Shown: positions 3,118 to 57,783 of the stretch, one piece after another | How the letters are laid out: each line of letters begins with the position of its first letter | Numbering within the stretch: position 1 is the first letter of the stretch | Source: Pseudisothecium myosuroides | Taxonomy: Eukaryota; Streptophyta; Bryopsida; Hypnales; Lembophyllaceae | DNA: 64,000 bases | Direction of reading: 5' to 3' | Assembly: GCA_951799445.1 (NCBI GenBank) | Contig: OX637287.1 | Coordinates: 18,724,224 to 18,788,223, forward strand | Made by a program: the position numbers and the translations under genes | The notes under the pieces: generated by a model | What the model was told of the DNA's origin: nothing | What the model saw: only the letters and a program-made list of their open reading frames with translations | Database searches by the model: none

Positions 3118-3910
3118 TTAACCCCTAATGACCCAAGCAAATATTTTCTAGTCGTTGCTACTCTTTTTTGAGTTGCTCATTCTCAAAATTTGAGGGGTTT
3201 TTTTAAATAAAAAATATTTCTAAAAAATAGATTGCATTATAATTCCAATGGCGGTGGTTTCATCAAATTTCAAGTTAAACTCCACCTTGTGGGATTTTTT
3301 AAACTTAAGTGGTACAATATAGTTCACAGCTCATTTTGGGGGTTTGGTTTGGGCACAGACTAAAAAATCAAACAATCAATGTGATTCTTGCCCACCTCAA
3401 AAAGGTTAGATCCAAGGGCCTCAAGGAGAAGACAAGTGTCCCATTCTTGTTTTTCTTACAAGCACTACTCTCATTTTAGTGACCACTACGCATTGCAAGC
3501 TCCAACATAAATTGAAAAATGCTTGGAATATAGTGAAATTTTACATGTACATTCTCAACTCTCTTGTCTTTCACTGAGCACAAAAAGGGCATCATTTTGA
3601 AATATTTTCACTAAGATATGCTCCTTCAAAGTGTGTCGCCTCATTTTTCAATTGACCCTAATGAAACTTCAAACTTAAATATCTAATAAACTTTACAGTC
3701 AAATAATCTGAAATTTTTCCAAGTGCTCATTCTCAATGTGAAATTCAAGATCCTATGGTTATATCCTCAAAGAAACACACGTACGTTATTGCATGATCCT
3801 ACATTTAGATACGTTAAAAAAGTAGTTTCTTCCTTGTGGCTCATTGCACTAGAAATGGCATTTTTGGAGTGTTTTTTGATGAAACATAGTCATGAACCTT
3901 TAGAGAATAG
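3118..3910 (+). mobile_element. TTAA-flanked repeat, family starting CCCCTAATGACCC (copy 1)
   Basis: The left end reads TTAACCCCTAATGACCCAAG. The next 600 or so bases match the repeat at 9304-10991 in the same orientation, including the phrase TGTGATTCTTGCCCACCTC. Unlike that copy it carries no insert at the equivalent of 9384, so it preserves the empty site, TTTTTTAAATAAAAAA near 3200-3215. The last 150 bases instead resemble the right end of the 35827-36757 subfamily and finish at CTTTAGAG without an intact TTAA. It has no coding capacity. Confidence 0.6.
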
Positions 3911-4308
3911 CATAACTTTGGGTCTCCTCTTCTTTCTCTACAACAGCCCATTGCCAATCTCCCTTTTATTTCTTAATTTTATCACTTGTCAATTCCATTT
4001 TTCTTCAATATGCTGAATTCTCACCAACTGTCAATGGCATAATATACTATACATTGGAGTTGACTGATGGGAACACCCAACACTGATGACTAATTACACT
4101 ATAGCAAACGGTCAAGGCAAAATGTGGAGTAACATATTCTTGTCAATCTCAAAAAATAAAGTAGTCTTGCCACTGGACTCCGATAGATTCTTCACTACTA
4201 TTCTTGACCTCAGCTACACAGTTCACCAAAGACAACCCTGCTCCATTGGTTAATAATGTAATCTTCACTAAACAGTGAAGTTGGGTTCAAAGGCATCCGT
4301 ATGGCCCA
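3911..4308. other. Intergenic, 3' flank of the 4309-4786 gene
   Basis: Moderately AT-rich sequence downstream of the minus-strand stop codon at 4311-4309. It presumably includes the 3' untranslated region. I could not pick a polyadenylation site with confidence. Confidence 0.4.
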
Positions 4309-4786
4309 TCACTCGAGTATAGATTCCTCATTCATGAGATTGGACAAGAACTCTTTGTGCAGGCAACCGGAATCACCACTGTTTACTGATTTCCAGTGGG
4401 GACTATCAACTAAGGTAATATTCCATGCTATTGTTAGAGTGGAAATAAACCCAGCTACTGTATCTGTAACGCCTTTCAAATATGCAAGATGCTGTTGGAG
4501 AGATCTGCCAGCAAAGCCAATTTGATTCCCCGACGTAACAAATCCCAGGAACTCCCTTTGCAGGATCTTCCATCAATTGAAAGGAATCAATGATAGATAG
4601 TCTAAACAGAAACCAAGGGATGTGGTTGAAAATTGCCAATGGAAATGACAAGTTCAGTTGGGCATGAGCGCAACTGAATAGTGAATACCAAGAGAAGAGG
4701 TGGACAATTGAAATTCAGCAAAACAATCATCCAGCCTACAGTACATAATTTTAAGGATATCTTACACTAACCGATGTTGTCGACAT
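4309..4786 (-). CDS. Two-exon gene encoding an unidentified small protein (model)
   Basis: Exon 2 (4566-4309) is open for 85 codons before a TGA and reads like a real protein, with segments QREFLGFVTSGNQIGFAGR, SLQQHLAYLKGVTDTVAGF and ISTLTIAWNITLVDSPHWK. It has no suitable start of its own. Upstream, ATG 4786 sits in an ideal context (GCCACCATGTCG) and gives seven codons (MSTTSVS) to the donor AGT|GTAAGA at 4766. Joining this to the acceptor GGAAG|ATC at 4567 keeps the frame and gives about 92 residues. The glycine-rich middle with TVAGFISTLTIAW could be an amphipathic or weakly hydrophobic helix. I do not recognise the family. The second exon is more secure than the first. The exon junction could also lie at the nearby GCAAAG. 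Confidence 0.45.
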
Positions 4787-5000: not shown

Positions 5001-6129
5001 CCAAATAACTTATTAAGTCTAGACCCAAATTGAACGGTTCGACTTGCGGGCTTCCACCTCATCATACAGCAGATATATTGGTCCTGTAAAGCGTTAAGGC
5101 CAGGTTAAATGACCACACTTCAAAGTTCCATGATCTCCGTCCTTGATATTGTACCTAGCATGCATCTTTTTCTGAAAGTGCAAAACATCTGTCACTCTGG
5201 AGTCCGGACATCAGGCACAACCTCGAAAGCTTGAAAGCACCTACTGTAATGAACCACGACATGTGGGGTCAGGCTCGGAGCAATGAACTCGTTCAACATT
5301 CCTAACTCGTCACTATCTCAATAATGTTAAAAGCCTTGAGGTCAGGCAGTCCTCCATCACCAAACGCAGCAATCCACATCCCTTATATAATCACAGGCAA
5401 GTCCCCAACCATGGATCTCTTCTCACCTCCTTCCCTAGTAGTGAATAAAACTCTTTTACCTTCCAGAGATCGTGCACTGGAAAGTATCATCCTCTCCTAT
5501 TTTGTAGATTGGACTCAGAGACTTGTCGTATTAGAAAGGCTAAATTGCATATACCCAAAACGTCAGGCGGTGGTCTTTCCAGCCCAACCAATCTGTGACT
5601 TGCTCTTGCAGGTCTCGAGGTTCAGTTCAAATCAGTCGAAAAGTATTGCAGGCAAGAAAGTGATTGGAGGTGCGCATCCTCGTTGCACACCCTCTTGGTT
5701 GAACACCAGGCATGGGCGCTTGTTAACAGACCGGAGAATCTGGCTCAAAGCACTACACAATTCTCAGCAATTCGGGATTGTTGAAAAGCCGTTCTCGAAC
5801 CACTACACCAACCTGCATAAACAATATCAATCAGAACATGCAACCCACTTTCGGTGATCTAACCAGATCAAACAACCTCATAGCTCTAGAACATTAAAGA
5901 TTGCGACAATTGAACGGTCGTATCCTTGGCAGAGTTATACATAGCATTATGTCCTTCCTACTCAACATATGAACAATTTCCACTAGATTCTCCAACAACA
6001 ATTGTGTAAAGGCATCCCAATCTGATGGAGAACCCTTTGGGATTCGAGATTTCCCCCTTCATTCAACAATCTGCGTCGACAGAGTTCATTCTCTACAACC
6101 AGAATGTGAGAAAACTGCATAAGGTTTAC
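5001..6129. other. Region between COA5 exon 2 and the next gene; no exon resolved
   Basis: GC content is higher than in the repeat mosaic, so this is probably transcript or flank of the minus-strand genes. The last exon of COA5 should lie here, but I could not find a frame resembling the family's conserved C-terminal Arg/Gly/Lys/Tyr tail. A plus-strand frame of 177 codons at 5324-5857 has no protein-like features and is treated as chance. Confidence 0.4.
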
Positions 6130-7074
6130 CTGTTCATGCTTGCATTCGATATACTTATCTCGTATGTCTCTGCACGTCGATGGCGCCGTCACATTCTTGT
6201 CTAATGCGCAATCCTTGTACGATCGTTTCTCTTCCTGAACAGAAAGGGGACCATTTTTATAAGTACATGAATCACACATTCAGGCCTAAAGCATTCTCCT
6301 GTGAAACAAGATGAGGGAGATTAAAAAAAAGAGTCACAACACATTAGGAGTCCTAAGTCCTAACCGTGGTGTAACATTAAGCATGATAAAAAAATTAAAA
6401 TCAGAATCACGCAGATCCTCGAAAATTCTAAACCACTGAAGCCTACAAATGGACGGGGTTCGTTCCAATAAGTATAAGCACCTAATTGCTTTCCTGTGAA
6501 ACAAGACGAGGGAGATTTTTTAAAGACTCACAATAAATTAAGATACCTAGCGAAATGAAATCACCATTGAAACCCTAAAACTCAAATTCACGTAGATCCT
6601 CGAAAATCAAAAACCACGAGGGCCGACAATGTCTCATTAGGTTACACGCATATGAGCACAACCTATGCTACTGCAATTATATCAGAGTGAAGTTCACTCG
6701 AACAGAAGAGATTCGAGTGGATTGAATGAGTAAGCCACTTCATACAGTAGCCAATCCTACTTAAAATTCAATCCTACATTCGAAATTCGAAATTCAATCC
6801 AAAATTTCCAAAGACGACTTGAGAGAATTCTCTTCACAACAAAAGTGATCGTTTCGTTTCGCTGACAGCAAACGAAACCCATTCCATGTCGAACCCTAAA
6901 CGATATCACACAATCCTCGTATCAAATCTCAACGAGCGTCCAAGAAAAAAAAGCGAGAGAATGACTATGTTGAGGAAAGACCTGCATGCAAGCAGATTCA
7001 GCGAGGCACTTGACCAGGCTCAAGGCCAAAACTCGGCAAGACTTGTGCACTTGGGGTTTCGCATCATCCGCCAT
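6130..7074 (-). CDS. COA5: Cytochrome c oxidase assembly factor COA5/PET191-like (3' exon not found)
   Basis: Exon 1 (7074-6982) starts MADDAKPQVHKSCRVLAL and continues SLVKCLAESACMQ. Exon 2 (6234-6130) continues EEKRSYKDCALDKNVTAPST, CRDIRDKYIECKHEQ. Junctions are ATGCAG|GTCTTT (a weak donor) and TTCTGTTCAG|GAAGAG, both in phase 0, and exon 2 ends CAG|GTAAAC. The cysteine layout, C-x9-C, C-x10-C and C-x9-C, matches PET191/COA5. That family consists of small intermembrane-space proteins with disulfide-linked helices needed for cytochrome c oxidase assembly. The context and order KSC, LVKCL, (E/K)RSYK(D/E)C and C...Y..CK also match. The 66 residues recovered lack the family's short basic C-terminal tail. 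Reading through the donor adds an unrelated tail ending near 5983. The intron is 747 bp and contains a local duplication. The frame is free of stops and looks functional. Confidence 0.85.
6290..6632. repeat. Local direct duplication inside the COA5 intron
   Basis: Two related units lie side by side, about 6290-6450 and 6482-6632. Both contain CCTGTGAAACAAGA(T/C)GAGGG near their start and AGATCCTCGAAAAT near their end, about 190 bases apart. The spacing and order are the same, so this is a diverged tandem duplication and not a transposon. Confidence 0.65.
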
Positions 7075-8310: not shown

Positions 8311-9251
8311 TTAACCCCTAAAGAACCGTTGTCCCTTCGGAGGACAAATGCATTTTCGGGCAAGTACCTACGGGCTGAAATTTTCTCCTGATTTTTTGAA
8401 ACTTTTTTTGGAGCTTGAAAATTTGATTAGCTTCGTCGGACTATAATTTTTTTCACAATCGGTGCCCGGGAAAAAAAGTTATGACCAAATAAGCTCAAAC
8501 GAGGGGACGGCGGGCAATCTGGGCAGCCAAAAAAATTTTGACAAAAACTTGAATTTTTTTTTTAATATTTTTTTCTCATAGATTATATTTTTGTCTATTT
8601 GGAAAGCTTCGATTCATTTCATTTGGATATGTTATGAGAAAGTTATGGACATTCTTGTTTTTCGGGGAGTTAGAGCATCTTCTTGAAAAAAATAACTTGT
8701 AGGATTCATTTCTGAATGCAATTTTTCAAATTTTTCAATTTTTTTTTTTTTTCGTGGTCTGATTTACTTGTTAGAACAATCTCACCATTGGGATTAGCGC
8801 ATTTTAATTCCATCTAAAATATATTAATGTTTTAGATTTTCCTTCTATCTCCTACCTACTTCTATTTAACAATTTTTTTAAGAATGATAATTAAGTTTTT
8901 TTGAATCTCTTTTTTTTTCCTAGACTCTCAACTCAATTCTACACTATAAAGAATTAAAGCTCAAAACTCTGCAGTGCAAAAATTTTAATTTAAAAATGTT
9001 CAAAGTCAAAAAATCTAGTCCCGCAATGTGCTGAAAAACTTGTTTTTTCCACTTTGAACGCAGATATCTTGCAATCTGTGCGGTCAAAAATTCTGAAATT
9101 TTTTCCATACATTTTCATACTAGTTAAGTATAAGATCCTACGGTTAGATGTGCAAAAAAAACATTTTTCAACTTTTTTAATTGTTTGCTATAGAAATGGC
9201 AGTTTTCAGTGTTTTTTGGCAGAAAAAAGGCCTCGGTCCTTTAGGGGTTAA
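8311..9251 (+). mobile_element. TTAA element, piggyBac-like non-autonomous, main subfamily
   Basis: It starts TTAACCCCTAAAGAACC and ends GGTCCTTTAGGGGTTAA, with TTAA on both sides as the target duplication. It is about 930 bp and contains no long frame. It shares the full internal order of landmarks with the copies at 9384, 12041 and 46089: a TGTCCC/GGGGACA hairpin near the left end, ATGTTATGAGAAAGTTATGG, CACCATTGGGATTAG, ATATCTTGCAATCTG, and AAATGGCAGTTTTCAGTG near the right end. Confidence 0.85.
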
Positions 9252-9303: not shown

Positions 9304-10991
9304 TTCATCCCTAATTACCCAAGTGACCATTTTCTGGTCACTGCCCCTTTTTTTGAGCTGCCCGTTCTCAAATTTTGAATTTTTTAACCCCTAAAGGACC
9401 ATTGTCCCTACGGGGGACAAATGCGTTTTTGGGCAGGTACCTACGGGCTGAAATTTTCTCCTGATTTTTTGAAACTTTTTGTGAACATGAAAAATTGAGA
9501 GAGGTACGTGGCAGGAAAAAAAATTGAAATCGGACCTTTGAGCGAGAAGTTATGCCATTTCTTGGAATGCGTGGCAACAGGGGGCAGCAAAAAAAATTTG
9601 CAAAATTTTGAATTTTTTTTTAAATATTTTTTTTCTCATAGATTATATTTTTGTCTATCTGGAAAGCTTTGATTCATTTCATTTGGATATGTTATGAGAA
9701 AGTTATGGACATTCTTGTTTTTCGGGCAGTTCAAGCATCTTCTTGAAAAAAATAACTTTAGGATTCATTTCTGAATGAAAATTTTCAAATTTTTCAATTT
9801 TTTTTTTTTTGCATGGTCTGATTTACTTGTTAGAACAATCCCACCATTGGGATTAGTGCATTTTAATTCCATCTAAAATATATGAATATTTTAGATTTTC
9901 CTTCTATCTTGTACCTACATCTACTTAACAATTTTTTTAAGAATGATAATTAAGTTTTTTTTGAAATTTTTTTTTTCCTAGACTCTCAACTCAATTCTCC
10001 ACTACAAGCATTAAAAGCTCAAAACTCTGTAGTGCAAAAATTTTAAGTTAAAAATGTTCAAAGTCAAAAAACCCAGTCCCGCAATGTGCTGAAAAACTTG
10101 TTTTTTCCACTTTAAACGCAGATATCTTGCAATCTGTGTGGTCAAAAATTCTGAAATTTTTTCCACACTTTTTTATACTAGTTAGGTGTAAGATCCTACG
10201 GTTAGATGTGAAAAAAAAACAATTAAATTTTTTTTAACTCTTTGCTACAGAAATGGCAGTTTTCAGTGTTTTTTGGCAGAAAAAAGGCCTCGGTCCTTTA
10301 GGGGTTAAGAATAAAAATTATTTCTAAAAAATAGACTGTAATATAAATCCAATGGTGGTAGTTTCATCAAATTTTGAGTTAAACTCCGCCTTGTGGAATT
10401 TTTCAAAGTCAAGTGGTGTAGTGTGGTTTACAGCTCATTATTTTGGGTTTGGTTTGGGCATGGACTACAAAGTCAACCAACCAATGTGATTCTTGCCCAC
10501 CTCAAAAAGGGCAGATCCACCTCAAAAAGAGCATGTCAAGGAGTTCAAGGAGAAGACAAGTGTCCCATCCTTTTTTCTCTTATAAACACCACTCCCATTT
10601 CAGTGACCACTATGCATTGCAAGCTCTAAGTCTATGAAATGAAAAATGCTTGGAATGTTGTGAAATTTTACATATACATTTTCAACTCTCTTATCTTTCA
10701 TTGAGCATAAAAAAAGCATCATTTCAAAATATTCTCACAAAGATATGCTCCTTCAAAGTGCATTGCCCAGTATTTCCATTGACCTAAATAAAACTTCAAA
10801 CTTAAATATTTCCTAAAACGTGCAGTCAAATAATCTGAAATTTTTGAGATGCTCACTCTCAATGTGAACTTTAAGATCCTATAGTTACATTCTATCTAAT
10901 CTCAAGACAAAATGAGCAAACAATTTACTCAAGTCTTTGGGAGTTTGGGCCCATTTTGAAATTACACCCCCCTTGGGTCATTAGAGATTAA
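9304..10991 (+). mobile_element. TTAA-flanked repeat, family starting CCCTAATTACCC (copy 2, interrupted)
   Basis: The left end is TTCATCCCTAATTACCCAAG (degenerate). The right end is CTTGGGTCATTAGAGATTAA, the inverse of the 3118 copy's left end. It matches 3118-3760 on both sides of a 921-bp insertion at 9384-10308. Without the insert it is about 760 bp. It has no coding capacity. Confidence 0.7.
9384..10308 (+). mobile_element. TTAA element inserted in another repeat (main subfamily)
   Basis: The ends are TTAACCCCTAAAGGACC and GGTCCTTTAGGGGTTAA. Flanks are GAATTT on the left and GAATAAAAATTATTTC on the right. The related repeat at 3118 has the same flanks joined across a single TTAA, so the duplication is directly demonstrated. 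It is about 920 bp, closely similar to 8311-9251 and in the same orientation only 132 bp away. Confidence 0.9.
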
Positions 10992-12040: not shown

Positions 12041-12981
12041 TTAACCCCTAAAGGACCGTTGTCCCTTCGGGGGACAAATGCGTTTTCGGGCAGGTACCTA
12101 TGGGCTGAAATTTTCTCCTGATTTTTTGAAACTTTTTCTGGAGCTTGAACAGCTGATTAACTTCGTGGGAATATAATTTTTCCCACAATCGGTGCCCGGG
12201 AACAATAGTTATGACCAAATAAGCTGAAAACAAGTGACGGCGAGCAGCCCGGGCAGCAGAAAAAAAATGGACAAAAATTTGAATTTTTTTTTTTAATATT
12301 TTTTTTCTGATAGATTATATTTTTGCCTATCTGGAAAGCTTTGATTCATTTCATTTGGATATGTTATGAGAAAGTTATGGATATTCTTGTTTTTTGGGCA
12401 GTTAGAGTATCTTCTTGAAAAAAATAACTTGTAGGATTCATTTCTGAATGCAATTTTTCAAATTTTTCAATTTTTTTTTTTTGCATGGTGTAATTTACTT
12501 GCTAGAACAATCTCACCATTGGGATTAGTGCATTTTAATTCCATCTAAAATATATGAATATTTTAGATTTTCCTTCTATCTTGGACCTACTTCTACTTAA
12601 CAATTTTTTTAAGAATGATAATTAAGTTTTTTTGAATTTTTTTTTCCCCTTAGACTCTCAACTCAATTCTCTGCAATAAAGATTTAAAGCTCAAAACGCT
12701 ATAGTGCAAAAATTTTAAGTTAAAAATGTTTAAAGCCAAAAAATCTAGCCCCGCAATGTGCTGAAAAACTTGTTTTTTTCACTTTAAACGCTGATATCTT
12801 GCAATTTGTGCGGTCAAAAATTCTGAAATTTTTTCCATACATTCTCATACTAGTTAGGTGTAAGATCCTACGGTTAGATGTTCAAAAAAAACATTTTTAA
12901 ATTTTTTTTATACTTTGCTATAGAAATGGCAGTTTTCAGTGTTTTTTGGCAGAGAAAAGGCCTTGGGTCTTTAGGGGTTAA
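12041..12981 (+). mobile_element. TTAA element, main subfamily
   Basis: It begins TTAACCCCTAAAGGACCG and ends GGTCTTTAGGGGTTAA, with a TTAA duplication. At 941 bp it carries the same internal landmarks as the 8311 copy, including the left subterminal hairpin TTGTCCCTTCGGGGGACAA. There is no long frame. Confidence 0.88.
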
Positions 12982-19771: not shown

Positions 19772-20687
19772 TTAATCCCCAAAGGTTTTTGACGCTACCA
19801 AATTGCAATTTCTAGCACAAGTACCAAATTTTAGAGAAAATAAACATTTTTGGACACATCTAACCGTAGGATCTTGTAGTATGATGGTTTGGAAATATGT
19901 GGAAAAAAATTCAAAAATTTCCACCGAGTAGATTGCAAAATATTAGCATTTGAATTGACAAAAAAACTTCTTTTGGCCCTACAAAAAATCAAGCAACTAC
20001 ACTTCACAAGGTCACATTTGTATGAAAAAATGTTCAAAATCATGATGATAATTATTTGAATTCATTCTTCAAGGCAAGTTTGCTACATGCTTAAAAAATT
20101 TCAGATCATTTGGAATTGTACAACAAAAAAAATAGTAAATAGAAAGAAGTAGAGAATGATTCAAAACACTAAATTGTTAAGAATTTAGTTATGAAATTGA
20201 TAAATGTCAATCCCAATGGTTGTTATGTTGTAATAAAAAATCTAAATCCACTATTTCTATTGTTTTTCAAAAATATTGTAAATTGAGTTATATAAAGGAC
20301 TTCAAAGTTTATTTTAGAGTAGTGATTGCATAATTACTCGCAAACTAAAACTCTTCATAACTTTCATCTCATAAATCAAAATGGAATTATTCAAAGCTTT
20401 CCATATATATATATATATACATATATATCTAAAAAACCAATTTTTAATTTTTAATTCTTTAAAAAGTGATTTTTAAAGAATTTTTTGAATTGCTTGCCGA
20501 TCAATGAAAATTACATAGCATACAATAACTTTTTAACCTTGTAGTAAAAAAAAAATTGGGCCTTAAAGCCACTCCTTGGGCACATGTTGTGTGAAAATTT
20601 CCCCCCCCCCAAAAAAAATCCGTTTGTAGTGAGTTGCCATAAATCACTATGTTTTCAAAAAACGCCATTTGATCCTTTAGGGGTTAC
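19772..20687 (-). mobile_element. TTAA element, subfamily B, inverted and decayed
   Basis: It starts TTAATCCCCAAAGG and ends CCTTTAGGGGTTAC (TTAA mutated). Read on the minus strand it follows the 35827 and 53336 copies: the phrase AAAAACACCACC-type block is lost, but GGTACTTGTGCTAGAAATTG, AGATCCTACGGTTAGATGTG and TATGGAAAGCTTTGAATAA are kept in order. It contains an (AT)n run at 20404-20428. Confidence 0.6.
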
Positions 20688-29371: not shown

Positions 29372-29380
29372 AGGTAACTA

Positions 29381-29688: not shown

Positions 29689-29765
29689 TACACCTAAAAT
29701 TGCACAGTTAAGTTCTGTGGCATGATCAGCATGCTCTAGCAAGTGAACAACAAATTTTGTATATA

Positions 29766-35731: not shown

Positions 35732-37012
35732 AGGGAGCCAACCCATTTCTGACCACTTAAGCAATTGAGCATATCTAGAGCGTAGGTATGTTCAATGGAA
35801 TCTTTTTCCCGTGTGCAAAAATAGATTTAACCTCTAAAGGACCGGCATGCATTTTTTGGTTGTATAGAAATTTTGGTCAGGTACGTATGACTAGAGATTT
35901 TTATATTTTAAGCTGAAATTTTAGTAGAAGGTGGGGACGAGGAGTATCTTTCATATGCAATAAATTTCATGACATTTGGAAATATAAGTCAAAAGTTATG
36001 ACCTAATATGTTGTTTGTTTCTCAACTTGGGCAGTCCGGGCAGATCAGAAAAAAACACTTTTTTCTAAAATAAAAATTTGAAATTGGTTTTCTAGAGCTA
36101 TATATATGTGGAAAGCTTTGAATCATTCCATTTTGACCAATGAGTCAAAAGTTATGAGGGTTTTTAGTTTGCGGGCAGTTATGGATTCTCAACTCTGAAA
36201 TAAACTTTGAAGTTGTTTATTTAACTCAATTTTAAATATTTTTTGGAAAAAAAATTCATAGGATGTAGGTTGTTTATTACAACATTACAAACATTGGGAT
36301 TGACATTTTTCAATTCCATAATTAAATTCTTAACAATTTAGTATTTTGGATCATTCTCTACTTCTTTCTACTTACTATTTTTTTTGTATATGTTGTACAA
36401 TTCCAAATGATTTGAAATTTCTTAAGCATGTAGCCAACTTGTTTAGGAAAAAGAATTCGAAGAAGCACCACCATTTTGGACATTTTTTCATACATATTTG
36501 ACCTTGTGAAGTGCAGCTGCCCTGTTTTTTGCAGGGACAAAAAAAGGATTTTTGCCAATTCAAATGCTAATATCTTCCAATCCACATGGTGGAAAATTTT
36601 TAAAATTTTTCCACATTTTCTAAAACTAGTTTACTATAAGATCCTGCGGTTACATGTGTCAAAAAAGTTTTTTTTTCAAAAATTTGGTACTTGTACTAAA
36701 AATGGCAGTTTTTGAGTGTTTTCGGTGAAAGCATAGTCATAGAACTTTAGGGGTTAAAGAAGATTCCATAATTTTTCACAATTTTATTTTCCAAAATAAC
36801 TTTATCATGAATTTTCTAGGTGAAGATTCTATTCATTCCATATTGGTTATATAGATAATTCTACTTTTGACTAAGGTCTGGTTGCAAAATCAAGAGTCCT
36901 ACATGTAGCCTAATCGCAATGTGCCATTCCTAATCACTTATCTCGTAACTAATCGTAACTAGACCTCCCTACACTGCCAAAATGGGGGTGATCAAGAATG
37001 GGTTGGCTCCCT
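35732..37012 (+). mobile_element. TA-type element with AGGGAG ends, interrupted by a TTAA element
   Basis: The ends are AGGGAGCCAACCCATT and AATGGGTTGGCTCCCT, with TA on both sides. About 354 bp of its own sequence surrounds the insert at 35827-36757. The uninterrupted relative is 30815-31188. Confidence 0.8.
35827..36757 (+). mobile_element. TTAA element, subfamily B, nested
   Basis: It runs from TTAACCTCTAAAGGACCGG to AACTTTAGGGGTTAA with TTAA duplicated. It is about 930 bp. Landmarks shared with 45065, 53336 and 56845 include TATATATGTGGAAAGCTTTG, GATTGACATTTTTCAATTCC, GTGAAGTGCAGCTG and AAAATGGCAGTTTTTGAGTG. No long frame. Confidence 0.85.
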
Positions 37013-40298: not shown

Positions 40299-41223
40299 TT
40301 AACCCCTAAAGTACCAAAGTCCCCTTGGGGGACACTTCAGATTTTGGGCAGGATTTTGTGTCCTCAAATTTTGATCTGATTTTTTGAATTTTTTTTGAAG
40401 ATAGGGAATCACATTAGCTTTCTAAAAATATAAATTTTTTTTCAATCAGTGCTCGGGAGCAAAAGTTATGCCATCCTAAAGTAAAAAAAGCAATTCGTCG
40501 GGCAGGAAAAAAAAAAAAAAAAAAAGGTTTTTAAACTAAATTTTTTTTTTCCCTCAAAGATCATGTTTTTGTCTACATTTGAAGTTTTGATTCATTCTAT
40601 TTGGACTAATAATGAGAAAGTTATGGACAATCTTGTTTTTTGGGCAATTTAAGCATCTTCTTCAAAAAACAACTTATAGAATTCATTTTTGAATGCAGTT
40701 TTCAAATTTTTTCAGATTTTTTTTGACGAGGTCAAGTTTGTTTGCAACAACAATCTCACCATTGGGATTATAGTGTCTTAATTCCATCTAAGAGCTATTA
40801 ATAATTTAGTGTTTTGATCAATTTTGGACCTACTTCTACTTAACAATTTTTTTATATGTGAAAATCAAGTTTTGATATGCTAAATTTTTTTTCCCGACTC
40901 TCAACTCAAATTTTCATCATAAATTTTTTTAACTTAATGTTGTCTAGTGCAAAAAAAATCCACGAATGTCCGTCAAAGTCATCTGAAATTGCAGGAAATA
41001 GTTCAAAAAAACTTTTTTTTCCAACTTTGAATGCTAATATCTTCCAATCGGAACGGTCAAATTTCTTGAAATTTTTACCACATGATCTGAGACAAGTGGA
41101 GTACAAGATCCTACGGTTAGATTCTAAAAAATAAGTTTTTTTGGTTTAGGGAGTGATTGCAGCAGAAATGGCAGTTTTCAGTGGTTCTAGAGCCAGAAAA
41201 TGCCTTGGTATTTTAGGGGTTAA
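40299..41223 (+). mobile_element. TTAA element, diverged main subfamily
   Basis: It runs from TTAACCCCTAAAGTACC to GGTATTTTAGGGGTTAA. It is 925 bp with the main-subfamily order of landmarks, but diverged: the subterminal hairpin is GTCCCCTTGGGGGAC, and GGAACGGTCAAATTTCTTG replaces GTGCGGTCAAAAATTCTG. Confidence 0.85.
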
Positions 41224-41786
41224 CTTGTTAAGTACTTACATATCAATTTTCACCTACATCTAAGATATTGTCCAATTTTGGTGGACATTTCCTCATTAAA
41301 ATCTTTTAAACTATTTCCAAAATAATTTAGAAACTACCAAAGCTAGCTTCGACCAAGCATAAATGATGGTTAGCCACTCCAAATGTCTTAAAACTTTGCC
41401 ACTCTATAGACCAACTTGTCAATTATTTACATGTTACTTTTTACGAGATCTAAAACATTGTCAAACTTTAGTGGACATTTCTCCATTATTGACTTTCTAA
41501 TCCTTCGCAAGATAATCTTGAAATTTCCATATCTAGCTTTGATCTATCATAAATGACAGAAAGTCTCTCAAAATTTCTTAAGACTTTGCCACAATGTAGA
41601 TCAACTTGTCAATTACTCACAAATAACTTTTTATTTTGACTTAAAATATTATCCAACATTAGTAGACATTTCCTCACTACTGACCTTAACCAAGTCATTG
41701 TCTCCACATTTAGATTGTATTTTGTACATAACTTGTAGGTCTCTTATCTGTTGTTTCCAAAAATTTCACACAATTTAGTAAATAAG
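41224..41786. other. Intergenic with loosely repeated blocks
   Basis: A diverged unit of roughly 170-180 bp recurs, with landmarks GACTTTGCCAC, CTTGTCAATTA and GTGGACATTTC(T/C)(T/C)CATTA. The related phrases just left of 40299 (ATCACTCCAAATGTCTTGAAA) suggest that the array also extends across that element. Confidence 0.5.
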
Positions 41787-43079
41787 TTTATTCCCAAAGG
41801 ACCAAGGTCTTTTTTTTTGCCAAAAAACACTCAAAACAACCAATTCTATTGCAAAAAAAAAAATGAAAATTATTTTTTTTGTACATCTAACTAAGGTAAC
41901 ACCCCCCATAACCGACCGAATAAGGAATTTCAACATGATCTGGAGTAGTGAAGGCAAAACAAATATTTTTTAGAGGTACATCGATAGAAATGACATGGAT
42001 TGCAAAAAATTGATACTTTTATCATTTGAATTGAAATTACTATGAATTTTGGAAGGCAAAAAGTGCGCCGGACCTATGGCCAATGTGTAGACTCTTCCAA
42101 TTTTGATCATTCAATAACTTTTTACCTAATCATTATTTCCTACTTTTTTTTCACAATTTGGGACATGTCATGTATTTATTAGTTCCAACCTTGAAAATGA
42201 AAAAAACAACATTCTAAACATGGTCGAAAATACGTGCACCTATAGGTCGGGAATGGGGGGGGGGTTACCTTATACAATCTTGTACCAAACTAATATGAAA
42301 ATGTGTGGAATAAATTTCAAAATTTTTGACTACACAAATTGCAAGATATGTGCATTAAAGTGAAGAAAACAAGTTTTTTTTAATACATTGCAAGACTAGA
42401 TTATTTGACTTTGAACCTTCTTAACTTAAAGTTTTTGCACTATAGAGTTTTGAGGTTTGAATCTTTATGTTGGAGAATTGAACTGAGAGTCTATGGGAAT
42501 TTATTTATTTTTAAATCTTAATTTTCATTTTTAAATTAAAAAAATAGAAGTAGGCATGAAATTTGAAGGAAAATCTAAATTCTTGATATCTTTAAGATGA
42601 ATTTAAAATGCACTAATTCCAACTGTATTATTGTTCTAGCAAGCAAATTAAACCATCTAGAAAAAAAAATTCTGAAAAGTTATAAAAATTGCATTTAGAA
42701 ATAAAACCTACAAGTTATTTTTCTAAGAAGATGCTTAGATTGCCCAAAAAAACAAAACTGTCTATAACTTTCACATCACTATCCAAATGAAATGAATAAA
42801 AGCTTTCCACGTAGATAAAATATAATCTATGGGGAAAAAAACATTAAAATCAAATTTTTGAATCTTTTTTGTTGTTTGGTCTCCCTTGTTTTGAGCTTAT
42901 TTGGGCATAATTTTTGTTCCCGAGGCACCAATTGCAAAAGAAATGATATTACCACAAAGCTATTCAATTTTTCTATCTACAAAAAAAGTTTCAAAAAATT
43001 ATGAAAAAAATTGAGACCATAAATACTTGTCCAAAATCCAATTTGTCCATTGAAGAGACAATGGACTTATAGGAGTTAA
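41787..43079 (-). mobile_element. TTAA element, main subfamily, inverted and interrupted
   Basis: Read on the minus strand it starts TTAACTCCTATAAGTCCATTG and ends GGTCCTTTGGGAATAAA, with the TTAA on one side decayed. Internal landmarks follow the main subfamily in reverse. At 41894-42270 it carries a TA-type element. Without that insert it is about 910 bp. Confidence 0.75.
41894..42270. mobile_element. TA-type element nested in a TTAA element
   Basis: The ends are AGGTAACACCCCCCATAACC and the inverse of AGGTAACCCCCCCCCCATTC, with TA on both sides. Removing it and one TA restores the host phrase CATCTAAC..ATA..ATCTTG at its normal length compared with other copies. Confidence 0.82.
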
Positions 43080-45064: not shown

Positions 45065-45980
45065 TTAACCCCTAGAGGACCAAATAGTGTTTCTAGCAAC
45101 ATAGCGATTTTGGTAGCTCATTACAAACGGATTTTTTATATTTATATTTATATTTTTAATAAATTTTCACACAACATGTGCTCTTAAGGAGTAGCTTTAA
45201 GGTGCAACAATTTTCATAACTTTTGACTACATGCTTAAAAAGTTATTGTATGATATGTAATTTTCTTTGAACTTTGGGTAGCCCAAAAATTTCTTAAAAA
45301 AATCATTTTCTTAAGAAATAAAAATTAAAAATTGGTTTTTTAGATTTATATATGTTTAAATCTAAAAACTTTAAATCTTTCCATGATTAATGAGATGAAA
45401 GTTATGAAGACTTTTAGCTCACAGGTAGTTATGGAATCTCTACTCTAAAATAAACTTTGAAGTCCTTTATTTAACTCAATTTTCAATATTTTTGAAAAAA
45501 TAAAAACATTGGAAGTAGATTGTTTATTTCAACATTGCAACCATTGGAATCGGCATTTTTCAATTCCACAACTAAATTCTTAACAATTTAGTATTTTGAA
45601 TCATTCTCTACTTCTTTCTACTTACTATTTTTTTTCCTGTATGTTGTACAATTCCAAATGATGTGAAATTTTTCAAACGTGTAGCCAACTTGTCTAGAAA
45701 AAAGAATCCAAAGAAGCACCACCATCTGGACATTTTTTCATTAAAAAGTAAGCTTGTGAAGTGCAGCTGATTTTTATCAATTCAAACTTTGATATCTTGC
45801 AATCTACAAGATGGAAATTTCTGAATTTTTTTCCACATCTTCTCAAACCATCGTACTACAAGATCCTATAGTTAAATGTGTCCAAAAATGTGTTTTTTTC
45901 TAAAATTTGGTACTCATACAAGAAATGGCAATTTTAAAACGTGTATGGTGCAAACATAGTAAAAAAACTTTAAAGATTAA
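45065..45980 (+). mobile_element. TTAA element, subfamily B
   Basis: It runs from TTAACCCCTAGAGGACC to ACTTTAAAGATTAA. It is 916 bp with TTAA on both sides. It is closely similar to 35827-36757 and 56845-57783 through the interior, for example TCTACTTCTTTCTACTTAC and GAAGCACCACCATCTGGAC. Confidence 0.8.
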
Positions 45981-46088: not shown

Positions 46089-47028
46089 TTAACCCCTAAA
46101 GGACCATTGTCCCTACAGGGGACAAATGCGTTTTCGGGCAGGTACCTACGGGCTGAAATTTTTTCCTGATTTTTTAAAACTTTTTTAGGAGGTAGAAAAA
46201 CTGATTAGCTTCAAGGGAATATAATTTTTTTCACAATCGGTGCCCGGGAAAAAAAGTTACGACCATATAAGCTCAAAACAGGCTTCGGGGGGCAGCTCGG
46301 GCAGCAAAAAAAAAAGGGACAAAAATTTGAATTTTTTTTTTAGTATTTTTTTTCTCATAGATTATATTTTTGGCTTTCCGGAAAGCTTTGATTCATTTCA
46401 TTTGGATATGTTATGAGAAAGTTATGGACATTCTTGTTTTTCGGGCAGTTAAAGCATCTTCTTGAAAAAAATAACTTTGGGATTCATTTCTGAATGCAAT
46501 TTTTCAAATTTTTCAAATTTTTTTTTTTGGGATGGTCTGATTTACTTGTTAGAACAATCTCACCATTGGGATTAGTGCATTTTAATTCCATCTAAAATAT
46601 ATGAATGTTTTAGATTTTCCTTCTATCTTGTACCTACATCTACTTCACAATTTTTTAAGAATGATAATTAAGTTTTTTTTTAATATTGTTTTTTTTCTAG
46701 ACTCTCAACTCAATTCTCCACTATATAAAATAAAAGCTCAAAACTTTGTAGTGCAAAAATTTTAAGTTAAAAATGTTTAAAGTCAAAAAATCTAGTCCCG
46801 CAATGTGCTGAAAAACTTGTTTTTTTCACTTTAAATGCAAATATCTTGCAATCTGTGCAGTCAAAAATTCTAAAAAAAATTCCACACATTCTTATACTAG
46901 TTAGGTGTAAGATCCTACGGTTGGATGTGAAAAAAAAACATTTTTCAAATTTTTTTACTCTTTGCTACAGAAATGGCAGTTTTCAGTGTTTTTTGGCAGA
47001 AAAAAGGCCTCGGTCCTTTAGGGGTTAA
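46089..47028 (+). mobile_element. TTAA element, main subfamily
   Basis: It runs from TTAACCCCTAAAGGACC to GGTCCTTTAGGGGTTAA, 940 bp. It is one of the best preserved copies, very close to 9384-10308, with the subterminal TTGTCCCTACAGGGGACAA hairpin. Confidence 0.9.
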
Positions 47029-48141: not shown

Positions 48142-48380
48142 AGGTGGCCACTTTTGCTACTGTGCCTTCAAATTTTCATTTTTTTTTCCTTTGGCAAGTG
48201 AAAAGAGGTTCCAACGCACCAAAGAATGTGACATTTGGATACCCTATGCAAAAGTTATGGAGGAACAAAATTTGGTTCGAAAACTCATGTTCTGCCACAT
48301 AAATACATAATTGATTTTGGAGATGTATACAAAGTGAAGATGGTGGTTTAGGGTTAGTAGCGCATGGGAGGGGGGCACCT
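48142..48380. mobile_element. TA-type MITE with AGGTGG ends (second copy)
   Basis: The ends are AGGTGGCCACTTTTGC and the inverse of AGGTGCCCCCC, with TA on both sides. The interior matches 17035-17303. Its right TA overlaps the TTAA that opens the next element. Confidence 0.72.
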
Positions 48381-49494
48381 TAATCCTTTAAGTTCCAAGG
48401 AACCACAAGTTGGTTTCCAGAGTGAGAAAAACATAAATAACTCATAATCTCAAAAGAATTGGAAGTAAGTTAGGAAATGAGGGTCACTAACTTTTTTTGG
48501 TAGAGAATAAAGTGGACCAATTTGATTTGGAAAATTGCAATTGCATGCAATAGTTACAGGCGTTTATACACAAGTATGTTTGCCAATCTCTGTATAATAT
48601 ATGGAAATATGTGGAAAGAATTGCAAAAGATGTGTCCCTTGTGTGTCTTGAACAACATTAGTACACAAAGATGATACAAGTAGATAGGCATTTTTTGGAA
48701 AGAAGGTCGCCGTAAAGAAATATGGCATATAGTACTATGTATAGCAATGTTTTTAGTAATTTTAGATATAATGGTCAACAAAAGTGTATACTTCAGGTGT
48801 GCTTTTTCTGAGTCTTTTTTCCATCTTCTATTGAAGACGTTGGCTTCAACTACTACTTTGTAAGTGCCGATCAATTACAAAAGAAGCACACCTAAATTTG
48901 TGCCAATTTTGAATAGAAAATTTTGTATATGCTTATGTCAAGTGTTTCTCATATTAAGCATGTGTTTTCACATATTGAAGGTGCATTTTTCAGTGTTGAT
49001 AGTTGTATGTGAATCATGAAAGCAATGTCTACCAAATCCAAAGGTCCTCGAAGTGAATCTTTTATGAGGATACTAGTGCTGCAAGCCTGTATTTGTGCAT
49101 ATTTCATACATTGATGTTCTAATTGATGTCAACAACATTGTATATGTACATTGTCATGAAACTCTAAATTCTCACAACACCAATGGTGGATCATTTTTTG
49201 CACACCCATTGTCTTTCACTCATTCTCCAATTTGGTGCGGGTTTTTTTTTCCATTTTTCATACATTGATGTTATGATTGATGTCAACAACATTGTATACA
49301 TTGTCATGAAACTCTAAATTCTCACAATACCAATGGTGGATCATTTTTTGTACACCCATTGTCTTTCACTCATTCTCCAATCTGGTGCAGGGTTTTTTTT
49401 CCACTTCCGCTCCTCTATCTTCAATAATCCGACGTTTGCTAAAGATTGTGTGTATTGATTTTTGCCAAAACAACACTGGGACTTAAAGGATTAA
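48380..49494. mobile_element. TTAA element, subfamily with TCCTTTAAGT ends
   Basis: It runs from TTAATCCTTTAAGTTCC to GGGACTTAAAGGATTAA, about 1.1 kb. It differs inside from the main groups. It contains a direct duplication of about 150 bp (49098-49250 and 49251-49402) with shared CAATGGTGGATCATTTTTTG. Confidence 0.75.
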
Positions 49495-49503
49495 ATTAGC
49501 ATA

Positions 49504-50965: not shown

Positions 50966-51568
50966 TTAATCCCTAAAGGACCATAAGGCCACCACATGGC
51001 TTCTACAACTACATTTATAAAAAATCTGATATAAGAACCTCACTAACAGGCCAAAAACAACAAAGAGACCCTAGATGATTTTCTTTGCTAAATCTATCAG
51101 TGTAATCCGATTGAGAAATGATCAAGTGTACAATTTTTGGTGAATTTTTAGAGAATTGAAAAGGTGTTGTGGGCCATCACTTCACATTCTCATATCTTTT
51201 TTTTTGCACCTCAAAATGATTTGAAAAAAATTACACGTTAATATTATGATGATATGTACTTGTGGGAAAAAAATCAGATTTTTTGGAGAACTTTTGAGCA
51301 TTCCGATTTCAACATTTTGTTTTCAGCGTACATACAAAGTACTCCCTAACCGAACATCTTTCATCAATCTTGTCAAAGGTGGCACTTTCTCAAAAATTGT
51401 GTGATTTTGTTGATTTTTTATTTATAGGAACGCTAAATAAGTCTTCTTCCATTTCAACGGTGGCGATTATCAAAATTATTCCACATGAATGAGGAACTAT
51501 GCTTGTTACAAAAGCTAGTCAAAAAAATAAGAACTATGCTCAAACACCCCCGCTCCTTTAGGGGTTAA
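50966..51568. mobile_element. TTAA element, short subfamily (603 bp)
   Basis: It runs from TTAATCCCTAAAGGACC to GCTCCTTTAGGGGTTAA. The interior is not obviously shared with other copies here. No coding frame. Confidence 0.75.
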
Positions 51569-52421: not shown

Positions 52422-53254
52422 TTAACCCCTAAGTGCTTGAGTACATGACCATGAATATATGGTGTCTCCAGAATTTCAGCTCATTTGTGTGTGGGCAAGT
52501 TAAATTCCTTCGACCATTCTAAAAGAGTTTACGGGCAATATTGAAGGTTAACTATTACAAGCTTTGTTTTTAATTGAAAAAAGTAAATATTTGATTTTTG
52601 AGAGGTCGTCAAAGGGTATATGTGCCTTTAGTGGAAAAGTATAGCTTGCCAGTTTTACTTGATTTCTCGGCTTTGAGAAAAGCTTCCCAATTTCACATCT
52701 AACTGAAAATTGTACTCATCCATTTGCTTTGAAAATGGTCCCAATGGAAAGAATAAAGTTTTTTCATGATTTTCACCATGATTGGAAATTGAAACATGCA
52801 AGTGTTGATTTGGAGTTATTTGTGATTTCTACTTATAAAAAAATTGCATTTCAACAAATGCAAGGTGGATTGTGTAATGAATTTTATAGCTCTTCATTTG
52901 ATAGTTCGAAGTGCATAAGTTTTTTGGAAGTGCATTTTAGTGTGCTAACACAATTTTTAGTTATTCATGTCACCTCCAATCCCCCAAAAAATTTATATGC
53001 AAATTTCTCAAACATTGTGAGGAGGGACAATATTCTAAAATTAAGATATTTATACATACTTTTTGTTATAATTTCACTACTTCTATGCAAATTCACACTC
53101 AAAATTGGCATACACACTAATAAACAAGATCTTTAGACATTTGTATAGTTAGATTTAAAAAAACACAATTTGCACCATTGGAAATAACCACAAGTCCATA
53201 CTCTATTTTCATAGGAAAAATACACTTGGAAAGGCTTAGGCACTTGGGGATTAA
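52422..53254. mobile_element. TTAA element, CCCCTAAGTGC subfamily
   Basis: It runs from TTAACCCCTAAGTGCTTG to TTAGGCACTTGGGGATTAA. It is 833 bp. It contains an open frame of 135 codons (52729-53136) that starts in AT-rich sequence and has no recognisable domain, so coding is doubtful. Confidence 0.75.
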
Positions 53255-53335: not shown

Positions 53336-54261
53336 TTAACCCCTAAAGTTCTTTCACTATGTTCTCACCAAAAACGCTCCAAAATTGTCATTTTCAGTAC
53401 AAGTACCAAATTTTAGAAAAAAAAAACATTTTTGGACACATCTAACCATAGGATCTTATAGTATGCTAGTTTTAGAAGATGTAGAAAAAAATTCAGAATT
53501 TTCCACTGTGTGGATTGGAAGATATTAGCGTTTGAATTGGCAAAAATCTTTTTTTTGTCCCTGCAAAAAACTGGGCAACTGCACTTTACAAGGTCACATT
53601 TGTATGAAAAATGTTCTAAATGTTGGTGCCTATTTGAATTCTTTTTTCTAAACAAGTTGGATACATGATTAAAAAAATTCAAATCACTTGGAACTGTACA
53701 ACATATAGGAAAAAAATAGTAATAGAAAGAAGTAGATATTGTTTCAAAATACAAAAATGTTAAGAATTTAATTATGGAATTGAAAAATGTCAATCCCAAT
53801 GGTTGTAATGTTGTTATAAACAATCTACATCCTAAGATTTTATTTTATTTTTTAAATATTGAAAATTGAGTGAAATAAACAACTTCAAAAGTTATTTTAG
53901 AGTTTAGAATCCATAATTGATGTGCAAACTAAAACTCCTTATAACTTTTGATTCATTGAGTGAAATGGAAGGAGTCAAAGCTTTTCATGTATATATAACT
54001 CTAGAAAACCAATTTCAAATTTTTATTTTTGGAAAAAAGTGATTTCTTTTATCTACCCAGACTGCCCGAGTTGAAAAACAAACAACGTAGTAGGCCATAA
54101 TTTTTGACTCAAATGTCATGAAATTTTGTGCATATGAAAGATATTCCTTGTCCCCACCTTCTATTAAAATTTAAGACTAAATTATGCAAATTTCTAGTCA
54201 CATGTACCTACGCAAAATCAATATGTTGCTAAAAATAGCAGGCTGGTCCTTTAGGGGTTAA
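53336..54261 (-). mobile_element. TTAA element, subfamily B, inverted
   Basis: It runs from TTAACCCCTAAAGTTC to GGTCCTTTAGGGGTTAA, 926 bp. Read on the minus strand it matches 35827-36757 closely (GGTCATAAT-type block, GGTTTTCTAGAGTTATATAT, GTAAAGTGCAGTTGCCC). Confidence 0.85.
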
Positions 54262-54420
54262 AAAAATTCACTAATATTTAGTAGTTTAATCCTTCAACTT
54301 CTTGAGACTAGTTGTAAATGATTTGATCCACTTTGAATTTTTTTTCATATGGATATATATAAATTTTAAAAATATATCTCGGGAATGAAGTAAAGATTAG
54401 TCTATCTAGTATGCATGGAA

Positions 54421-56118
54421 GTAACCCCTAAAGGACCATTGTTCCTTTGGGGAACAAATGGGATTTTGGCAAGTACCTATAGGCTGAATTTTTGTCCTGA
54501 TTTTTTGAATTTTTTTTTGAAGATAGAAAAAATTGATTAGCTTTGTGAGAATATTATTTCTTTTTCAATTGGTGCCCGGGAATAAAATTTATGTCCAAAT
54601 AACCTCAAAATAGGGGAGAGGGGGGAAAGTCAAGGGGTAACAAAAAAAAATTCAAAAATTTGAATTAACTCCTAAAGGATCGACGTGTTTAGAGGCCCAA
54701 AATTGCTTTAAAATACATGTACCCAAAGCAAGGTCAAAATCTTCATCAATATTTATTTTTTAACAAACTCAACCATAGGATCCTTTGGTTAATTTGCATA
54801 AGTACATTGTCCCAAAATTTTAGAATGAATATCTCCACTGATTGCAAGATCAATGTGCCTAAACTTCAAAATGTAGGCTTTTCTAGTCCTTCCAAAAGGT
54901 GAAGTTTTGTCTTTCAACATTTTTAGAAAAAAACACATATATGTCCTATAACTTGTGAATTTTACACAATATGTTGGAAAATGGGTTGAAAACATGTGTA
55001 AAAAATTTTAAACAAAAAACTTTTATATTCATTTAAAAAAAATTGAAAAGTGAAAGGTATAATTGAATGAAAGATAAAACTAATATGCTAATAACTTTTG
55101 GAAGAATTTGAGGATTGTTAATCCCAATGGTGAGAATGTTCTAATAGGAAATTATCATCCTTTATTTCCATGTATGTTTGAAAATTTCAAAATTGAGAGC
55201 AAAAGATGACTTTATGTGTTTTTTCTACCTCCATTGTCCGCAAAATAAAGCTCCTTATAACTTTTACTTCATTATTCGGAATTGAGTGGTTCAAGTTTTT
55301 CTTGAGTAGGTATCAATGTACACAATTCTAAAAAAATAATTTTCATTTTTTTAGAATATATATTTTGCTGCCTAGTTTGACATTGAAATTGAAAAAATCC
55401 TTCTAACTTTTGCATTACTTATCAGAATGACATGAAACAAAGCTTCACTTATAGATTATAATGAGTGGCATCCATCCTAAAAAGTTTCATGCAAAAATTC
55501 CAAATTAAGAAGTCGATAGAGCCTACCCAAGTTCCCAGAAAGCCCAAAGTAGGTTCCTTGGTCCTTTAGGGGTTAAAATTTTTCTTTTCCTTATAGACTA
55601 CATTTTTGCCTATATGAAAAGCTTCGATTCATTCCATTTGGATTTGGTATAAGAAAGTTATGAACAATCTTGTTTTTCAAGCAATTAGAGCATCTTCTTG
55701 AAAAAATAACTTGTGGGATTCATTTCTGAATGCAACTTTTACAATTTCCCCCCCCATAAAAATTGAATTTTTTTGAATTTTTTTTCGTTCCTAGATTTTC
55801 AACTCAATTCTCTACCACAAAGATTTAAAGCTCAAAAAATTTTAGTGCAAAAAATTGAAGTTAAGAAGGTTCAAAGTCAAATAATTCAATCCCACAATGT
55901 GTTGAAAAATTTGTTTTTTACACTTTAAACACAAATATCTTGCAGTCTGTGCCCTCAAAAATTTTGAATTTTTTTCCACACATTTTCATACTAGTTAGGT
56001 GTAAGATCCTATGGTTATATGTGCAAAAAATAAATCAATTTTTTTAATTCTTTGCGATAGAAATTGAAGTTTTGAGTGTTTTTTGGTAGAAATAAGGCCT
56101 TAGTCCTTTAGGGATTAA
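54421..56118 (+). mobile_element. TTAA element, main subfamily, interrupted
   Basis: The left end is GTAACCCCTAAAGGACC (first T of TTAA lost) and the right end GTCCTTTAGGGATTAA. Main-subfamily landmarks lie on both sides of a 908-bp insert at 54665-55576: the subterminal hairpin and GGTGCCCGGG on the left, GAAAGCTTCGATTCATTCCA and ATATCTTGCAGTCTGTG on the right. Confidence 0.82.
54665..55576 (-). mobile_element. TTAA element, subfamily C, nested in 54421-56118
   Basis: It runs from TTAACTCCTAAAGGATC to GGTCCTTTAGGGGTTAA with TTAA duplicated. The host reads GAATT|TTAA|AATTTTTC across the site, as expected from intact copies. It is inverse to 32787-33666. Confidence 0.85.
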
Positions 56119-56844
56119 TTATAGAAAATATTGAAAATTTAGGATTAGGGATTATAATAACTTTGAATTATCTATTACTTTTGAAATTTAAAAATAAATA
56201 CATCTTTTTAGAAATAAAATGTATAGAAAGATAAAGATTCTATTTTTTTCAAAACAAAAAAAAATTTGATTAGAATCTAAAACAAATGTATTCTTCTTAT
56301 ATATATTATTACACATATACAAATATGAAGGTGTACAATAGTCTAAATGAAATCAATTGGAATCCACAAAATATTCAAATATATTTATACGCTACTGTGA
56401 TGCAAATTTTTTAATTATATAAAAATATTTATAATTATTCTTTTGATTGGACTTGATTGAATTCACTTGAAAAAAATAAATAGGACAGAAAAAAGAGGAA
56501 TTGTGGTAAGAACCATATTTTAGTTTAATAATGGAGCTTGTTATCTTATCTTGGATGTCGTATTCCTTATAATAGCTCAAGGGGGTAGATGGCAAATTGA
56601 TTGTACAATTTTTCTATATTATCTTGCTAGTAGCGCTAAGCTACAAGTCATCCGTGTCGTTCAACGAGTCCAATGGGGCTCAAATCCGGACCAAACCGGG
56701 CGGTAGAAGCTTAAGCAATCAACTGAATCCGTGACTTGGCAATTGATTTTGTTTCAGTGAGGCTTTTATCGCCTTTGTTTGTTGCCTATAGAATAGTGTC
56801 TTCTAATTTTTTCTCTTTTGAAATAGTTACATGTTTTATTAGCT
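56119..56844. other. Intergenic with a possible tRNA-like relic
   Basis: At about 56628-56700, TAGCGCTAAGCTACAAGTC and GGGGCTCAAATCCGGA resemble pol III A and B boxes at tRNA-like spacing. No complete cloverleaf could be drawn, so this is at most a tRNA-derived relic. Confidence 0.25.
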
Positions 56845-57783
56845 TTAACACATAAAGGCCATTTTTTTGGCAACATAGTAATTTTTAGCAGCTTACTACG
56901 AACAAATTTTTTATTTTTTCCCTTTGAATTTTTCACACAACATGTGCCTAAGGAGTAGCTTTAAGGCTTAACAATTTTTATAACTTTAGACCACATGGTT
57001 AATAAATTATTGTATGATATACAATTTTCATTGCTCGGTGGGTACCTCAAAAGATATTTAAAAATCAATTTTTTTCTGGAAAAAAAAATTTGAAATTGGT
57101 TTTTGAGATTTATATATATGTAAAAAGCTTTGAATCATTCCATTTTGATGAATGAGATGAAAGTTATAAGGACTTTTAATTTGCAGACAGTTATGGAATC
57201 TTTACTTTTAAATAAACTTTGAAGTCCTTTATTTAACTCAATTTTCAATATTTTTTGGAAAAAATAAAATCATAGGATGTAGAGTGTTTATTACAAAATT
57301 ACAACCATTGAGATTGGCATTTTTCAATTTTATAACTAAATTCTTAACAATTTAGTGTTTTGAATCATTATCTATTTCTTTCTATTGTCAAACTATTTTT
57401 TCCTATACATTATGTTGTAAAACTCCAAATGATCCAAAAATTTCAAGCATGTAGCCAACTATTATTGAAGAATGAATTCAAAGAAGCACTACCAATTGGG
57501 GCATTTTTTCATACAAATGTGACCTTGTGAAGTTCAACTGTCCTTTTCGCAGGGCTAAAAAAAGGATTTTTGTCAATTGAAATGCTAATATCTTGCAATC
57601 TACATGGTGGAATTTTTTTGAAATTTTTCTACTTCTTCTCAAACCAAATTTCTACAAGATCCTATGGTTAGATGTGTCCAAAAACGTTTTTATTCCTAAA
57701 ATTTGGTACTTGTTCTAGAAATGGTAGTTTTGGACTTTGGAGCATTTTTGATGAAAACATAGTCCAAAAAATTTAGGGGTTAA
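56845..57783 (+). mobile_element. TTAA element, subfamily B
   Basis: It runs from TTAACACATAAAGGCC to AATTTAGGGGTTAA. It is 939 bp and matches 45065-45980 throughout (CAACATAGTAATTTT, AGGAGTAGCTTTAAGG). The left terminus is mutated. Confidence 0.78.

Follow-up and report, generated by a model that had tools for sequence, protein, structure and literature searches.

The window, by which we mean the whole 64,000-nt stretch analysed (C1:18724224-18788223, contig OX637287.1, from an assembly with a total of 387.9 Mb and 222 contigs), carries about 20 short elements whose inversely oriented ends adjoin the tetranucleotide TTAA. We are highly confident that these are non-autonomous piggyBac elements of a likely moss, similar to miniature inverted-repeat transposable elements (MITEs), and that they are internally deleted relatives of elements of 5.1-5.7 kb in the same genome. 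With up to three mismatches allowed, the 14-base end motif TTAACCCCTAAAGG occurs 49 times in the window, compared to a mean of 7.5 and a maximum of 16 in 100 shuffles; exact copies number nine for the roughly 20 elements. The initial annotation had described about 20 TTAA elements with inverse partners, and our own count agrees. Among the 17 element starts listed there, 15 carry the motif with zero to two mismatches (8311, 9384, 12041, 32787, 33663, 35827, 40299, 45065, 46089, 50966, 52422, 53336, 54421, 54665 and 56845), and the other two, 48380 and 41787, belong to elements with poorer ends.

Pairing of the inverse ends yields uninterrupted elements of 427-1,115 bp, 11 of which measure 912-941 bp. 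The terminal word is exactly TTAA at 27 of the 28 ends of 14 paired elements, a count in which the TTAA common to the elements at 32787 and 33663 is entered twice and from which 54421 (GTAA), 41787, 48380, 52422, 9305 and 3118 are left out. Most ends begin with CCCC, some with CCTC, TCCC, CACA or similar. In 302 kb of sequence, minus eight loci that had been chosen by the motif, TTAA directly precedes 24 of 25 distinct CCCCTAAAGGACC sites, the background frequency of TTAA there being 0.35% of positions.

Internal homology defines two large families, whose copies are not young because identity within families is 66-91%. Family 1 comprises seven copies and a decayed one at 20756. On the plus strand it is found at 8311-9251 (941 bp, TTAA at both ends and CCCCTAAAG.. 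termini), 9384-10308 (925 bp), 12041-12981 (941 bp), 40299-41223 (925 bp) and 46089-47028 (940 bp), with 12041 and 46089 placed by paired ends and end alignment. Another plus-strand copy, recognised by internal homology at 54421-56118, begins with GTAA and is split by a further TTAA element on the same strand, 54665-55576. The copy on the minus strand, 41787-43079, starts with TTTATTCCCAAAGG and holds an internal insertion; it stands outside the identity table, and its main block is 76-77% identical to 8311, 12041 and 46089, a second block lying at the far end. Family 2 has five copies: 35827-36757 (931 bp, plus), 45065-45980 (916 bp, plus), 56845-57783 (939 bp, plus), 53336-54261 (926 bp, minus) and 19772-20687 (916 bp, minus, one end GTAA), the last four of which were placed by paired ends and end alignment.

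Six elements are alike in the style of their TTAA ends only. Three of them have paired ends, namely 32787-33666 (880 bp), its neighbour 33663-34089 (427 bp), with which it has its right TTAA in common, and 50966-51568 (603 bp); the others are 54665-55576, 48380-49494 (1,115 bp), with TTAATCCTTTAAG at both ends and four mismatches to the motif, and 52422-53254 (833 bp), whose CCCCTAAGTGC-like ends differ beyond the motif (left end CCCCTAAGTGC, right end CCCCAAGTGCC-like). Two elements are older and decayed. One, 9305-10991, is split by the nested family 1 copy 9384-10308 and retains the right end TTAATCTCTAATGACCC, its left end being decayed; its decayed relative at 3118-3907 (limit set by eye) has the left end TTAACCCCTAATGACCC and a right end resembling that of the large element L039 described below. 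The elements 19772-20687 and 9305-10991 and the decayed copy at 20756 were absent from the initial list. The proposal that at least six subfamilies share ends and differ inside was examined in part: both of the two families have transposase-bearing partners, and for the remaining elements the comparison covers the termini. Within 48380-49494, a 150-bp unit is tandemly duplicated at 49098-49403 (92% matches).

The flanks of the elements were joined and the junctions searched against the window. Three elements (40299, 9384 and 54665) have relatives that run uninterrupted across the junction: for 40299 these are a repeated unit at 41313-41556 and 41508-41679, for 9384 the older element (3117-3353), and for 54665 seven places inside family 1 copies (8406, 46184, 12154, 42984, 9578, 40393 and 21009). 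The filled sites are bordered by TTAA left and right, as compared to one related word in the relatives (CCAA, TCAA, TTTA); in the relatives of 54665 the site is an AT-rich stretch in which the exact word is unclear. A weaker fourth relative, that of 35827, lies at 31192-30994 (74%) with a single TTTG. The full length of the duplication is probably TTAA and not a shorter word, because the outer bases are nearly constant at the ends and sites counted above. The elements have target-site duplications of the piggyBac type, with the exact length resting on this constancy. The unit next to 40299 is about 190 bp long and is repeated over 41258-41633; a further copy of it carries the 40299 insertion.

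In the whole genome, the exact motif TTAACCCCTAAAGG is present 21,067 times (10,581 + 10,486), and the motif read backwards once. If the ratio in the window holds, this extrapolates to some tens of thousands of elements, the window being about 2.6 times denser than average. A search of the genome with the PF13843 (DDE_Tnp_1_7) profile, in which 116 of 899 candidates were scored, gave at least 116 domains, all above the curated cut-off and distributed over contigs C1-C11. In 73 of the 116 places, counted from the rows, the domain is free of stops, and open frames reach 1,091 amino acids. The absence of PF13843 matches from 14 control genomes carries little weight, since at least one of these is bacterial.

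Several of these transposase-bearing elements have the ends of the window families. The element L039 is 5,566 bp long, has TTAA-CCCCTAAAG ends (left end TTAACCCCTAAAGGACCAGACAGCG, right end in reverse complement TTAACCCCTAAAGTTCCATGACTATG) and contains a frame of 780 amino acids that matches PF13843 with an E-value of 2e-79. Over 186 bp on the left and 380 bp on the right, L039 is 75% and 77% identical to the two ends of the family 2 element 35827-36757; its right end is also 68-72% identical to the four other family 2 copies, and its left end 72% to 53336-54261. As the check on its assignment to piggyBac, the initial annotation had named an intact element that shares these ends and encodes a DDE_Tnp_1_7 protein, and L039 is such an element. 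For family 1 the same role falls to L017 (C5:31905448-31911073, 5,626 bp), which carries PF13843 and has family 1 ends on both sides, the best match being 40299 (82% over 97 bp at the 5′ end and 78% over 153 bp). With DDE_Tnp_1_7 partners, CCCC ends and a TTAA target all present, that assignment is upheld. In L018, an element of about 5.7 kb with its 5′ end set by eye, the 3′ end is 82% identical to 40299 over 308 bp; on its 5′ side the match to family 1 begins about 225 bp inside, with none at the 5′ terminus itself. The ends of 8311-9251 also match those of L017 and L018, to which 40299 is the closest family 1 copy. Two further PF13843 elements, L040 (5,414 bp) and L042 (5,098 bp), have related but different ends, TTAACCCCTCAGGG and TTAACCCCTCAAC, and their terminal 400-450 bp have no match in the window. 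The window elements themselves have no credible Pfam match in ten long frames and have ends in common with larger transposase-bearing elements, as MITEs do.

Another lineage, group A, with TTAACCCCTCAGGGCCGG ends, is represented by five copies on five contigs, and a comparison of 4,116 bases gives 99.9-100% identity among them. For two of the copies, a full-length alignment shows 99.96% identity and different flanks, with the identity breaking off at the TTAA ends or no more than a few bases away. Because the copies are at least 99.9% identical, we conclude that group A transposed recently.

The predicted product of the 5.1-5.7 kb elements is a DDE/D transposase whose C-terminal region is rich in cysteine, and the elements belong to the piggyBac superfamily by protein, ends and target site. 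The termini of piggyBac elements as a rule begin with CCY, and T. ni piggyBac has CCC ends, catalytic aspartates and a C-terminal cysteine-rich region, each of which is matched here. In all 12 aligned domains, Asp-144, Asp-233 and Asp-350, located at three motifs, are invariant; we take them to correspond to the catalytic residues of T. ni piggyBac. The C-termini are rich in cysteine and histidine, as judged by eye. Among sequences of solved structures, the L039 transposase has two matches, both of piggyBac type: piggyBat from Myotis lucifugus (9c0f, E = 1.7e-28), the best but a distant match confined to residues 255-678, and T. ni piggyBac (IFP2; PDB 6x67, E = 2.5e-20), which likewise has a TTAA target and a PF13843-type domain. 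In the available part of PMC2874221, the T. ni element is 2.4 kb long with one open reading frame (ORF), whereas the elements described here are 5.1-5.7 kb long and contain, upstream, a second ORF or exon that is conserved. Their transposase frames span about 580-1,090 amino acids in many copies.

This second ORF is about 200 residues long and has a core of about 90 residues, for example KWP..P....FRHHFYRQAAHALGW..........FIK..VWPD (alignment of 17 of 22 candidates, with broken or truncated ones excluded). The version in L039 (positions 1157-1825) has 150 matches in the genome. An upstream ORF lies 1.5-3.5 kb 5′ of the transposase on the same strand in 51 of the 116 PF13843 places, compared to a mean of 0.2 and a maximum of 1 in shifted controls, and on the downstream side in none of the 116. 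When 20 loci were fetched by this ORF, the left end aligned to position 1 of 35827 in 16 of them, one being L039. Three versions scanned against Pfam gave no match at E ≤ 0.01. The predicted structure of the core has five helices (predicted local distance difference test scores of 74-92 in blocks of residues 101-200), and none of the 28 matches listed for it among solved structures reached E ≤ 0.001. A donor-like AAAATGG/GTA is present in five of nine loci examined, and acceptor-like AG sites precede the transposase frame in L031 and L036. The reading phase, in our own reading, does not suit a simple two-exon gene. The ORF, which is tied to the piggyBac transposase, may belong to the same gene as a 5′ exon or may encode a protein of its own; its predicted helical domain is undescribed.

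How does this transposase relate to those of other organisms? In a midpoint-rooted tree of 76 transposase domains, 13 from the genome and 33 source-labelled database sequences cluster together (100/100, stem 0.58) to the exclusion of eight named animal sequences, and the sequences of the genome occupy several deep branches. For this tree, nine of 30 transposase loci were filtered out (stop in the domain or no DNFF-type motif), eight near-identical copies were omitted, and 12 of 75 database proteins were dropped for having fewer than 300 aligned residues. The sampling leans toward the L039 side because the database rows were chosen by similarity to L039. The database proteins P0003-P0044 (labels jgi, ena and lgn) are 31-66% identical to the L039 transposase, and the cluster that contains the sequences of the genome takes in 33 of them. 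No named plant protein with this transposase is among the 75 matches to L039 or the 120 listed of 367 profile matches, and none of these 120 carries an organism name. P0004-P0037 are close relatives of the L039 transposase, about 39-62% identical and mostly labelled jgi; possibly, and this is a guess, they are moss DNA in environmental samples.

Other transposons also use TTAA. Kolobok elements make the same target duplication and, in a passage of PMC9587614, are reported in chlorophytes and red algae; according to that passage their termini, in contrast to those of piggyBac, are 5′-RR..YY-3′, whereas most window copies have 5′-CC..GG-3′. Transposase-bearing elements with the same ends as the window copies moreover encode DDE_Tnp_1_7, and we consider Kolobok very improbable. 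Sola3 elements target TTAA as well, and this duplication is all that speaks for them; the linked transposase is PF13843, and its sole matches among sequences of solved structures are piggyBat and piggyBac, which makes a Sola3 origin more improbable still. MITEs of PIF/Harbinger (target TWA) or Tc1/mariner (target TA) with a preference for TTAA would be a third source. TTAA includes TTA, TAA and TA, so that the uninterrupted paralogs alone leave the duplication length unfixed. On the other hand, TTAA hardly varies in its outer bases (27/28 ends, 24/25 sites), copies with a freely varying outer T or A are not seen, and the linked transposase is that of piggyBac; the chance of such an origin appears minimal.

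Animals are the best-known hosts of the piggyBac superfamily, and contamination of the assembly with animal or protist DNA could be the origin of the elements. In its favour, all eight organism-named sequences among the 75 database matches to the L039 transposase are from animals. These named sequences, however, stand apart from the transposase group of the genome, and the transposase matches occur on all 11 large contigs (C1-C11) among plant genes; eight of these contigs (C1, C2, C3, C5, C6, C7, C9 and C10) together carry 58 chlorophyll a/b-binding matches. The window itself contains a moss-like COA5/PET191 gene at 5754-7073 on the minus strand (exons at approximately 7073-6981, 6233-6130 and 5812-5754, placed by eye; PF10203, E = 9e-14). 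Its product is 80% identical over the full length to the proteins of Physcomitrium patens and Ceratodon purpureus, the two candidates returned, and the C-terminal VVRER..NNPEL is common to all three. From the COA5 match and the chlorophyll a/b-binding genes we conclude that the genome belongs to a green plant, in all likelihood a moss; the plant host claimed initially is thus borne out, with a moss more likely than a vascular plant. One chlorophyll-binding protein was also compared with solved structures, but the many plant and algal chains that it matched were of no use in placing the host. Contamination seems extremely unlikely.

The assignment of the window copies to moss piggyBac has to be set against several observations that tell against it. 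An unambiguous TTAA has survived at the target site in none of the uninterrupted paralogs, and no transposase was found in the window, where ten of the 20 stop-to-stop frames of at least 110 residues were scanned against Pfam and gave one match below the cut-off. Identity between the ends of the window copies and those of the transposase-bearing elements is only 68-82% (over about 100-400 bp), too low to mark any of the latter as the exact source of the window copies. Four of the 20 loci retrieved with the upstream ORF have no match to window elements, and the identification of the host as a moss from sequence depends mainly on one gene, COA5.

Shared ends, a TTAA target, a transposase domain with conserved aspartates and near-identical copies are the observed parts of a cycle that could explain the spread of these elements. 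The transposase of the large elements would recognise the common ends, consisting of CCCCTAAAGGACC and the bases immediately internal to it, excise the element at TTAA and reinsert it at a different TTAA, so that the element comes to lie between two copies of this word; it would also move the MITEs of the window in trans. By analogy with animal piggyBac, excision may be seamless and proceed via hairpins.

In plants, piggyBac is known mainly as an imported tool. The view that the superfamily is missing from standard lists of land-plant transposons was too strong, as passages in PMC10794571, PMC10004981, PMC6890710 and PMC10813416 list or mention plant piggyBac: a plant review includes it among the class II superfamilies (PMC10794571), PiggyBac MITEs are listed in angiosperms (PMC10004981), the repeat table of a fern genome has 1,230 PiggyBac copies (PMC6890710), and a 2023 abstract names ‘insects, fungi and plants’ as the sources from which piggyBac has been isolated (PMC10813416). 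For the grass Stipa, an excerpt gives one PiggyBac copy of 75 bp (PMC8319324). As far as the relevant section of PMC10004981 goes, the angiosperm MITEs resemble the window elements in being TTAA-type, non-autonomous and from plants, and were assigned by target site and element features, whereas the elements described here have transposase-bearing partners. A paper on P. patens transposons treats Mariner elements in the part available (PMC7466625); piggyBac was not looked for in it. A Niphotrichum paper (PMC10619864) was discarded as a source, as it matched only through the word ‘piggybacking’. By title, no description of a moss piggyBac was found in the open-licence literature; prior entries, for example in Repbase, are possible.

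In our judgement, what is new here is the unexpected host lineage, the larger size of the elements and the extra conserved ORF, the elements being otherwise of a known piggyBac type. We see even chances that mosses own an ancient piggyBac lineage with deep families, an extra upstream exon or partner protein, present or very recent activity and tens of thousands of short elements, and that this is the first autonomous piggyBac from a land plant to be well documented. Intact, near-identical copies in a plant would provide a native, testable plant piggyBac, and the conserved upstream domain may reveal how larger elements bind their ends. Did mosses inherit piggyBac from an early eukaryotic ancestor, with other land plants having lost it, or did they acquire it sideways?

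One more element-like stretch lies at 29362-29700. It starts with TTAACCTCTAAGGTAACTAAGGTAGTCTGC and has a longer inverted end, AAGGTAGTCTGCT..; because its right end is without TTAA, it may belong to another family of terminal inverted repeat elements.

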